Origin: Bergeyella sp.
GTDB taxonomy: Bacteria; Bacteroidota; Bacteroidia; Flavobacteriales; Weeksellaceae
DNA length: 64,000 bases
Reading direction: 5' to 3'
Assembly: GCA_030263285.1 (NCBI GenBank)
Contig: SZYB01000002.1
Location: 1-64,000 of the forward strand
Shown here: piece after piece, positions 25,934 to 28,759 of the stretch
How the letters are laid out: each line of letters begins with the position of its first letter
Numbering within the stretch: position 1 is the stretch's first letter
The notes under the pieces: generated by a model
What the model was told of the DNA's origin: nothing
Database searches by the model: none
The model's input: only the letters and a program-made list of their open reading frames with translations
Made by a program: the position numbers and the translations under genes

Positions 25934-25967
25934 TTATTTAAAAAAATATCCTTAATTTATAATAAGC

Positions 25968-26005
25968 AAGATACCCCCTCACAACATATTGTGAGGGGGT
26001 ATCTT
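25968..26005. terminator. Strong hairpin terminator after the paralogue array
   Basis: A perfect 17-bp stem (AAGATACCCCCTCACAA with its complement) and a CATA loop. It lies 22 bases past the stop of the last array gene (minus strand) and upstream of the eno promoter, so it insulates eno from the array. The T-run after it is weak (CTTATT). Confidence 0.8.
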
Positions 26006-26026
26006 ATTTGCCTTATACAAGTATTA

Positions 26027-26788
26027 TTATGAAACTCGTTTTATAGAAAAGAACGAAGAATCTCCGGTTCCTGTACTACCAGAACTTTGGGCTTTTATAG
26101 TAGCAGTACCATTAGATATAGCTGTCCTAAAAGAATAATTAACTCCCGGCAATAATTCTACAGTAGCCATAAGAGTATAGGTTTGCATTCCGTTTGCTGT
26201 GACAGGTGCTGTATATGAATCCTTTACTCGGGCGATCCATTTACCTGCAGTATCATCCCACACTCCTAATATTGGATCGCTGGTTTTACTAGAAGCATTG
26301 ATCTGCACATTTATTTTTATGTTATAAATTCCTCTTTCAACTACTGAAAAAACTCCATTATTCAGTTTATTTTCATTATCTACCAGTTTCTTATTAACCG
26401 GATTAATTATTTCCGGGCTGTTAGTCTTATTAATTGTAAAGTCTCCCGTCATTAATGCGGCAATTTCTTGAGCAATAAGAAAGTTCTTTCCATTAGAGAT
26501 CAAACTTCCTATCATATCCAGAGAAGGAACAATATCTTCCTTCGAAGTGGCTCGCAACACTCCTTTACTATCTGTTGTTAATATATTTTCTCCATTATAG
26601 GTTACCGGTTTTACAATGGAACGGATACGCATGGTCCCATTTACATCTAAAGTATTAGTAGGATTATTGGTGTTAATCCCCACTCCAACGGGATTATTAT
26701 TTTGTGCATAGATTACAACAGCATTGGCAAGAACTAATAAAATTAACAGTTGTCGCATTATTCTCATTATATTTGATGCATTTATCAT
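26027..26788 (-). CDS. Secreted C1q/TNF-like paralogue, array copy 3
   Basis: 253 residues. A signal peptide (MRIMRQLLILLVLANAVVIY within the first 30 residues) is followed by VGVGINTNNPTNTLDVNG, a head motif common in Bacteroidota surface and fibre-like proteins. The C-terminal 140 residues look like a beta-sandwich of C1q/TNF type: GVFSVVERGIYNIKINVQI, QTYTLMATVELLPGVNYSFR and FFSIKRVS at the end. It is about as similar to the two neighbours as they are to each other. The ATG at 26788 is listed; Met8 (26767) is also possible. No T9SS C-terminal signal was seen. Function unknown. Confidence 0.8.
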   Translation of the reverse strand: MINASNIMRIMRQLLILLVLANAVVIYAQNNNPVGVGINTNNPTNTLDVNGTMRIRSIVKPVTYNGENILTTDSKGVLRATSKEDIVPSLDMIGSLISNGKNFLIAQEIAALMTGDFTINKTNSPEIINPVNKKLVDNENKLNNGVFSVVERGIYNIKINVQINASSKTSDPILGVWDDTAGKWIARVKDSYTAPVTANGMQTYTLMATVELLPGVNYSFRTAISNGTATIKAQSSGSTGTGDSSFFSIKRVS

Positions 26789-26844
26789 TTGTTCATTTTT
26801 TTACTAATGAGTTAAATAAAAGTAAACTTCATTTAATTTTCATA

Positions 26845-27576
26845 TTATTTTATTCTTTTCACAAAAAAATAAGAAACAGGATTATCTCCGTTATCATCCT
26901 TCACGTGGGACTTTACCGTAACATTACCACTTGATCCATAGGCTCTAAATGAGTAATTTTTTCGAGGGGACAACTCAACAGTGGTAATAAGCGTATAGGT
27001 CTGATAGCCTTTATTACTTTTAGGTGCCGTAAAAAAGTCATTAGTTCTAGCAATCCATTTTCCTGTGCTTTCATCCCACAGACCTATCACAGGTCTGAAA
27101 TTTTTATCATGAGTTAATTGAGCATTGATAATAATCTGATAAGTTCCTCCTTCTGATACTGAAAACACCCCATTCTTAAGTGCATTTTCATTATCTATTA
27201 TTTTATTATTTATCGTTTTGATCACAGCAGTTTGTCTACCTGCTGTTCCTGTTGTAAAATCATTATCCATTGTTGCAGCAATTTCTTGAGCTACAATCAA
27301 TTTATTTCCATCAGAGATTACACTACCCGCTTTAGTAGGTGCTGGAACAATATTTTCTCTTTTTGAGGCAGACAAAACACCTCGACTATCCATAACAATT
27401 ATTCTCTCTCCAGTATAAGGGGTAGGACTCATCAGGGAGCGAACCCTTGTGATTCCGTTAACATCTAATGTATTTGTGGGGGCATCGGTATTAATACCAA
27501 CCTTCGAAGTATTTTGTGAATGGATTTCTATACCGCACAGAAGAAACACAAAAAACAAGAACGGTTTTGTCTTCAT
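26845..27576 (-). CDS. Secreted C1q/TNF-like paralogue, array copy 2
   Basis: 243 residues. Signal peptide MKTKPFLFFVFLLCGIEIHS, then KVGINTDAPTNTLDVNG, the shared NIVPAPTKAGSVISDG and LIVAQEIAATMDNDF region, and the beta-rich tail GVFSVSEGGTYQIIINAQL, PVIGLWDESTGKWIARTND, FTAPKSNKGYQTYTLITTVE, ending YFFVKRIK. All landmarks align with copies 1 and 3 without gaps longer than a few residues. It lies between them in the same direction. Assignment to the C1q/TNF fold is inferred from the strand pattern, not from a search. Confidence 0.8.
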   Translation of the reverse strand: MKTKPFLFFVFLLCGIEIHSQNTSKVGINTDAPTNTLDVNGITRVRSLMSPTPYTGERIIVMDSRGVLSASKRENIVPAPTKAGSVISDGNKLIVAQEIAATMDNDFTTGTAGRQTAVIKTINNKIIDNENALKNGVFSVSEGGTYQIIINAQLTHDKNFRPVIGLWDESTGKWIARTNDFFTAPKSNKGYQTYTLITTVELSPRKNYSFRAYGSSGNVTVKSHVKDDNGDNPVSYFFVKRIK

Positions 27577-27659
27577 CTTTTAGTTTTTGTATGATTTATA
27601 TCTATTAAATTTGCTTATTTCAAGCTTTGAAAAGCCACACGGCTGAATAACATAACATA

Positions 27660-28394
27660 TTATTTTATTCTTTTTACAGAAACATAAGACACCGATCCAA
27701 TACCTGTGATACCTTTACTAAGCGCTTTCACTTCTACCAGCGCAGGCTTGCCTTCTAGAGCGATACGAAAGGAATAGCTATTGTTAGGCACAAGCTCTGC
27801 TACAGTTAATAAAGTATAGGTTTGAAATCTGTTCTTGTTTTTTGTAGAAGGAGCGGTATAGCTATCCGAAACTCTCGCAACCCAACCTTGGGAAGAGTCG
27901 TTCCACAAGCCAACAACCGGGTTGGTAGTTTGGGCGTCAGCATGAAGCTGTGCATTAATCAAAATTTGATACAGACCCTTTTCTCTCACCTTAAATACCC
28001 CACGATCAAGACCATTATAACTATCTACAATTTTTTTATTAATCGTATTGATCACTTTCGGAACATTAACTACTTTAATGGTAAAATCTCCATCTAACAA
28101 CGAAACCATTTCCTGAGCAACAATTAATTTTTTTCCGTCGTAAATTACACTTCCAATTTCTGACGGGGCTGGCGCGATATTCTCTCTATTCGTACTCTTT
28201 ATAACCCCCTGGTTGTCAGATATCAAAATCTTTTCTCCATTATAACTTATTCCCTTTTCTAACGCACGAACACGGACGTCTCCATTGACATCCAACGTAT
28301 GAGAGGGTTTACTCATATTAATCCCTACTCGTCCATTTTGAGCAAGCAATTGAATACAAAAAAAAATAAAAATCGGCAAAAACAGTTTTATCAT
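27660..28394 (-). CDS. Secreted C1q/TNF-like paralogue, array copy 1
   Basis: 244 residues, first gene of the array. Signal peptide MIKLFLPIFIFFCIQLLAQ, head motif RVGINMSKPSHTLDVNG, then NIAPAPSEIGSVIYDGKK and LIVAQEMVSLLDGDF. The tail has GVFKVREKGLYQILINAQL, PVVGLWNDSSQGWVARVSD, SYTAPSTKN, FQTYTLLTVAELVP and VSYVSVKRIK. Conserved Trp, Asp and Thr-Ala-Pro positions are shared by all three copies. A strong promoter lies 92 bases upstream. Its partner and role cannot be read from the context; secretion and oligomeric adhesin-like function are inference. Confidence 0.8.
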   Translation of the reverse strand: MIKLFLPIFIFFCIQLLAQNGRVGINMSKPSHTLDVNGDVRVRALEKGISYNGEKILISDNQGVIKSTNRENIAPAPSEIGSVIYDGKKLIVAQEMVSLLDGDFTIKVVNVPKVINTINKKIVDSYNGLDRGVFKVREKGLYQILINAQLHADAQTTNPVVGLWNDSSQGWVARVSDSYTAPSTKNKNRFQTYTLLTVAELVPNNSYSFRIALEGKPALVEVKALSKGITGIGSVSYVSVKRIK

Positions 28395-28759
28395 GTCTTA
28401 TTTTTTTATTATCGTGTAGAACCTTAAAGCAGAGATATAAAAAATATGTTTTTCCCTTAAAAACGTCATCAGAATTTTATGAATCCAAAAGTAACACTTA
28501 AGAACAACATAACAAAATACCTATTATCTCCCTATCAACACGAAACAAACAATTTGCGAGGTAGGCAAATCAGATTCTAGTAGAGCAACATGTTTTTTTC
28601 GGACTTATTAAGATGTATTAAGAAAACTTTCACAGAACTCTACTCCTTCCTATAATAAATATTTCCGAATAGAACAGAGAATAGAACCTATTTGAATTCT
28701 ATCTGTTTTCTCTCATTCTGCCTCTTGAACTAATTATTATAAATAAAAAAACAGATGGA
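28395..28759. other. Intergenic region between rplQ and the array
   Basis: AT-rich. It holds the array promoter (28486-28516) and the 3' arm of the ribosomal operon terminator near 28745. I see no further gene in it. Flavobacteria often have carA here, but nothing resembling it is present. Confidence 0.6.
28486..28516 (-). promoter_or_regulatory. Promoter of the C1q-like array
   Basis: On the minus strand TTTG (28516-28513), a 19-base spacer and TACTTTTG (28493-28486), an exact consensus match. Transcription would begin near 28479 and leave a leader of about 85 bases before the first array gene. Confidence 0.75.

Follow-up and report, generated by a model that had tools for sequence, protein, structure and literature searches.

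Bacterial TNF/C1q-like domains, such as those of Bc2L-C, PLTL and the tips of mosaic adhesive trimer (MAT) fibers, bind glycans. The MAT fibers of Bdellovibrio (Bd2439, Bd2734, Bd2133) are exported proteins that range from several hundred to more than a thousand residues, in which a conserved beta-domain of ~130 residues follows the signal peptide and the motif VG-x-[NG]-T-x2-P-x3-L forms the capping loop of trimeric beta-helical fibers; two crystallized tips are TNF-like, one binds GlcNAc, and TNF-like MAT tips are trimeric (PMC10769870). Three genes in the window (the whole 64,000-nucleotide stretch of Bergeyella sp. DNA that was analyzed) encode proteins that share with these fibers their export and the capping-loop motif and, with Bd2439 and Bd2734, a C-terminal TNF/C1q-like tip. 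In contrast to MAT fibers, the window proteins lack the ~130-residue domain, have only ~245 residues and one capping motif, and are encoded in tandem triplets.

Other described systems are similar in part. The window proteins share the jelly roll with the C1q/TNF superfamily (Caprin-2, C1QL, TNF ligands), but identity is only 12-15% and they have no collagen stalk. The N-domain of Bc2L-C and PLTL are bacterial binding domains of the same fold class, although structural alignment gives ~9-12% identity. Among the trimeric beta-helix proteins of the MYRF/peptidase S74 type, the MYRF head (VGINTDRP...L) aligns with that of the family, but the S74 autoprotease or chaperone domain is absent from the window proteins. 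Literature searches on C1q in Chryseobacterium and on the C1q domain in Bacteroidetes returned no description of such a family.

The unit between rplQ and eno

Three minus-strand ORFs lie between rplQ and eno (Table 1). Their products have pairwise identities of 46-51% over the whole length, and each begins with an N-terminal hydrophobic signal, which confirms the first-pass annotation of three tandem secreted paralogs. The features it listed are also present in all three: a GIN..P..TLDVNG head, an AQE..DFT region and a tail with GVF.V, G.W....W.AR..D and YTL...EL...YSFR. Copy 3 could equally well start at 26767, where a later ATG lies in frame.

Table 1. Features of the three-gene unit (positions in the window).
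Feature	Position	Strand	Description and basis
Copy 1	27660..28394	-	244 aa, first gene of unit; signal peptide, capping-loop head and C1q-like tip; sequence, fold model with 9 sequences
Copy 1 capping-loop motif VGINMSKPSHTL	28293..28328	-	Sequence; family-profile match to heads of Bd2133 (8ond), MYRF (7dc3) and 8ojn; PMC10769870
Copy 1 C1q/TNF-like tip domain (predicted)	27663..28154	-	AlphaFold2 model and structure matches
Copy 2	26845..27576	-	243 aa; architecture as copy 1
Copy 2 capping-loop motif VGINTDAPTNTL	27466..27501	-	Sequence; family-profile match
Copy 2 C1q/TNF-like tip domain (predicted)	26848..27327	-	Alignments A1/A3; homologous to modeled copies 1 and 3
Copy 3	26027..26788	-	253 aa from first ATG; architecture as copy 1; fold model with 32 sequences
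Copy 3 capping-loop motif VGINTNNPTNTL	26648..26683	-	Sequence; family-profile match
Copy 3 C1q/TNF-like tip domain (predicted)	26030..26509	-	AlphaFold2 model and structure matches
Candidate Bacteroidetes-type promoter TTTG-N19-TACTTTTG	28486..28516	-	No other match in intergenic DNA of the cluster; 91 bases 5' of copy 1
G+C-rich hairpin, 18 pairs	25967..26006	-	3' of copy 3; likely terminator between unit and eno

The promoter proposed for the unit fits the Bacteroidetes consensus and is indeed the only such match in its intergenic spaces. The 64 kb contain this pattern three times where 1.46 would be expected, and the match is therefore weak by itself; it supports, without proving, a single unit. 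The strong terminator claimed after copy 3 corresponds to a real hairpin, and the gaps of 83 and 56 bases between copies hold no internal promoter match and no terminator. Promoter, terminator and clean gaps are consistent with the earlier claim of one transcription unit, probably an operon of Sec-exported proteins. Copy 1 also contains a run of nine T (28358-28366); A/T runs of nine are not rare (nine in 64 kb).

In each copy the export signal ends in A/S-Q, and the Q is invariant in all 32 aligned full-length relatives. This fits the Bacteroidetes Q-rule, a Q at the junction of signal peptidase I substrates (PMC5837995). With A/S-Q at the junction, there is no lipobox cysteine at the cleavage site in any of the three. 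The C-terminus of the tip is the last jelly-roll strand in the copy 3 model, and a profile search for T9SS C-terminal signals (such as TIGR04183) gave no match in the window proteins, in line with the first reading, although the genome does encode cargo with such a tail (only two proteins found, both elsewhere).

The first-pass annotation placed the unit where related flavobacteria usually have carA. Within the same family this does not hold: rplQ adjoins eno in G001, G006, G007 and G010, and G025, G030 and G034, where carA separates the two genes, belong to other families of the order. Replacement of carA by the cluster was considered and rejected, since carA is intact at another place in the window genome and rplQ and eno adjoin without it in the same family. 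As the two genes are direct neighbors there, the unit appears to have been inserted between them in the window's lineage.

Capping motif and tip fold

A family profile matches the solved structures of Bd2133 (8ond, E = 0.0016), MYRF (7dc3, E = 0.011) and 8ojn (E = 0.031); each match is weak alone, and all align at the one motif VG-x-[NG]-T-x2-P-x3-L, which is present in the three window copies (copy 1 carries M for T). The motif begins 4-7 residues after the invariant Q, leaving no room for the N-terminal domain of the Bdellovibrio MAT fibers, and the absence of this domain makes surface display uncertain. The head (approximately residues 20-80) is poorly modeled as a single chain, with pLDDT under 50 over residues ~21-51, consistent with a head that needs the trimer to fold. 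Elsewhere in the window's genome (G000, contig C12:66656-67333; L037:4657-5334), a fourth protein with GTG as its listed start has the same GVNTNNPTSTLDVNG head and a different beta-rich tail, to which the tip profile gave no match.

Single-chain AlphaFold2 models were made for copy 1 with 9 family sequences (tip block pLDDT mostly above 86) and for copy 3 with 32 (tip pLDDT 84-98). For both models the best class of PDB match is C1q/TNF (Foldseek/VIA-align), and the predicted jelly rolls match solved domains of this class over nearly their full length, e.g., the Caprin-2 C1q domain (Z 15.8 and 15.9, rmsd 2.0 Å, 128 of 132 residues aligned). Further matches include C1QL1-3, EDA-A1, the phage phi812 spike knob and BclA, and the copy 1 model additionally matches the Bc2L-C and PLTL lectins (2wq4, 9ib7; Foldseek). 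The dominance of C1q/TNF proteins in both sets supports the fold that was first called from strand pattern; the tip is predicted with high confidence to be a C1q/TNF jelly roll. The profile search marks a further difference from the superfamily: at the gathering score, neither Pfam C1q (PF00386) nor TNF (PF00229) gives a match in the window proteins, and the few matches among the 32 family members are weak (C1q in two, best E 0.0025; TNF in three, best E 0.064). Sub-threshold Pfam/NCBIfam matches to DUF4082, choice-of-anchor R and Utp13 were set aside, being attributed to chance or to a resemblance common to jelly rolls. Sites fixed in a copy-specific way show no association with strand or loop position (5/10 and 64/108 in strands, which make up 93 of 161 positions).

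Relatives, long fibers and recurrent triplets

The search with the tip-only profile A3 covered 320 same-family genomes plus 395 from the order and 395 from the phylum. In the family, 94 of the 320 genomes (8 of 33 genera) have matches, many of them weak, while the sampled order and phylum genomes outside the family gave only two distant ones; among sampled genomes, strong relatives are found only within the window's own family. A scan of genome contigs with the window's own alignment gave mostly head-only matches. As in the MAT fibers, the tip is reused as a module on fibers of differing length: in genus g20, which we infer to be Chryseobacterium, it forms the C-terminal end of proteins encoded by open frames of 515, 707, 828, 1189 and 1603 codons with 2-14 VGxxT..P...L capping motifs (regular-expression count). 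The presence of the same tip on long, many-motif fibers indicates that the window proteins, with one cap and one tip, would be the minimal form of a mosaic trimeric-fiber architecture.

Exactly three copies stand in tandem in the window genome, G015, G010/G226, G109/G118/G170 and G144. Two-gene arrays occur in G066, G152, G130 (where the contig ends) and G123 (where the second copy is broken); no array exceeds three among the matches listed. A more distant relative, G186, has three copies on one short contig, and single copies are common among relatives. The tree unites the window copies (98/75), and likewise the copies of G015 (98/90) and of G010/G226 (84/65); those of G109/G118/G170 are position-wise orthologs. 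An ancestral set of three orthologous chains was rejected, in that position-wise clades across the three main genera fail the AU test (p = 1e-22, 1.1e-4 and 2.7e-4). Together with the grouping within genera, this suggests that triplets arose independently in several genera, or that gene conversion homogenized the copies within genera, and that they were then maintained. Each copy is under strong purifying selection where orthologs exist (dN/dS 0.059-0.082 for each orthologous copy pair with measurable dS, in G010/G226 and G118/G170).

Some start regions in G015 contain homopolymer runs. In its first copy (L036:7014-7762) the upstream ATG is not in the reading frame of the remainder and is followed directly by an A-run and a T10 run; a further T10 run lies close to the start of the third copy. 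Like the T9 run of window copy 1, these could reflect slipped-strand on/off switching or assembly error.

A cluster conserved between rplQ and eno was not recovered, as triplets in other genera sit in unrelated contexts. By sequence resemblance, their neighbors are an alpha/beta-hydrolase and an aminopeptidase in G010/G226 and the nuo operon and a peptide transporter in G015; g20 neighborhoods contain various genes. No neighbor hinting at a partner or export machine is common across genera, apart from two small families in g20/g21. These two families, which start like MNFKEIHIGTLI... and INYKTLYTDII..., adjoin each other beside several GINT-P-LDVNG fiber genes (L086, L096, L098, L099 and L101) and are possibly regulators.

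Proposed function and alternatives

The window proteins are probably Sec-exported trimeric adhesins or lectin-like binders, in which a C1q/TNF tip sits on a very short fiber base and the copies have diverged in specificity. Each chain would be exported by Sec and cleaved just ahead of the invariant glutamine. Only as a three-chain beta-structure would the head and the segment that follows it fold, capping and registering the three tips, and the tip trimer would bind a ligand, most likely a glycan by analogy with other bacterial TNF/C1q-like domains. With three diverged copies, the cell would display or secrete several binding specificities and thereby reach a wider set of targets. Trimer formation is suggested by the predicted fold and the head motif. 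Homotrimers are the default reading and mixed trimers are possible; the multi-subunit assembly proposed in the first-pass annotation, if taken as three different chains, is one option only.

In that option the three chains co-assemble into one heterotrimer, each giving one face, as in complement C1q with its A, B and C chains. The recurrence of three and the conserved order make it attractive: at least five close-family lineages have three-copy arrays, with none larger among the matches listed, the copies persist in order as 1:1 orthologs (G010/G226; G109/G118/G170) with gaps under 60 bases, and a single promoter would serve all three window genes. However, the AU tests indicate that triplets arose separately, the many single-copy relatives must work as homomers, and arrays of two exist, the numbers being too small to show a preference for three. 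Given the single-copy relatives and the small numbers, we consider a heterotrimer rather unlikely. An outright bacterial C1q, i.e., an obligate A-B-C heterotrimer invented several times from a homotrimeric ancestor and presenting a composite binding face on each mixed head, is a little more doubtful still. The proteins could instead be periplasmic or outer-membrane-associated structural or buffering proteins, as they have a Sec signal only, with no lipobox, T9SS C-terminal match or MAT N-terminal domain. We regard this as quite unlikely, since the C1q/TNF fiber tips and TNF-like lectins studied to date serve as binding domains (PMC10769870; PMC12914763) and the long fiber relatives would be hard to fit in the periplasm. 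Domesticated or degenerate phage tail-fiber genes are a very improbable source: the head does match PHROG families (phrog_9563 in 32/32 members), and viral fold matches include tail fibers and phage C1q-domain proteins, but all copies have signal peptides and evolve under purifying selection, no phage genes were seen around the unit, and searches of 50,697 phage records and of viral contigs gave no real match (the latter scanned with one window protein as query, which reaches close relatives only).

If the favored reading as trimeric adhesins or lectin-like binders holds, unannotated exported proteins of Chryseobacterium-type bacteria would be tied to a defined architecture of trimeric beta-fiber caps with C1q/TNF tips. 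This architecture would span minimal forms of ~245 residues to stalks of ~1600, and it predicts trimers, sugar binding and a surface role. An adhesive logic like that of MAT fibers would extend to bacteria that are not known to be predators. The repeated, apparently independent three-copy arrays would also offer a natural experiment in how homotrimers might turn into heterotrimers.

The window's genome (1.68 Mb, 99.99% complete) ranks with the smallest same-family genomes listed. Its small size, along with only two T9SS-tailed proteins, suggests a reduced, perhaps host-associated lifestyle.
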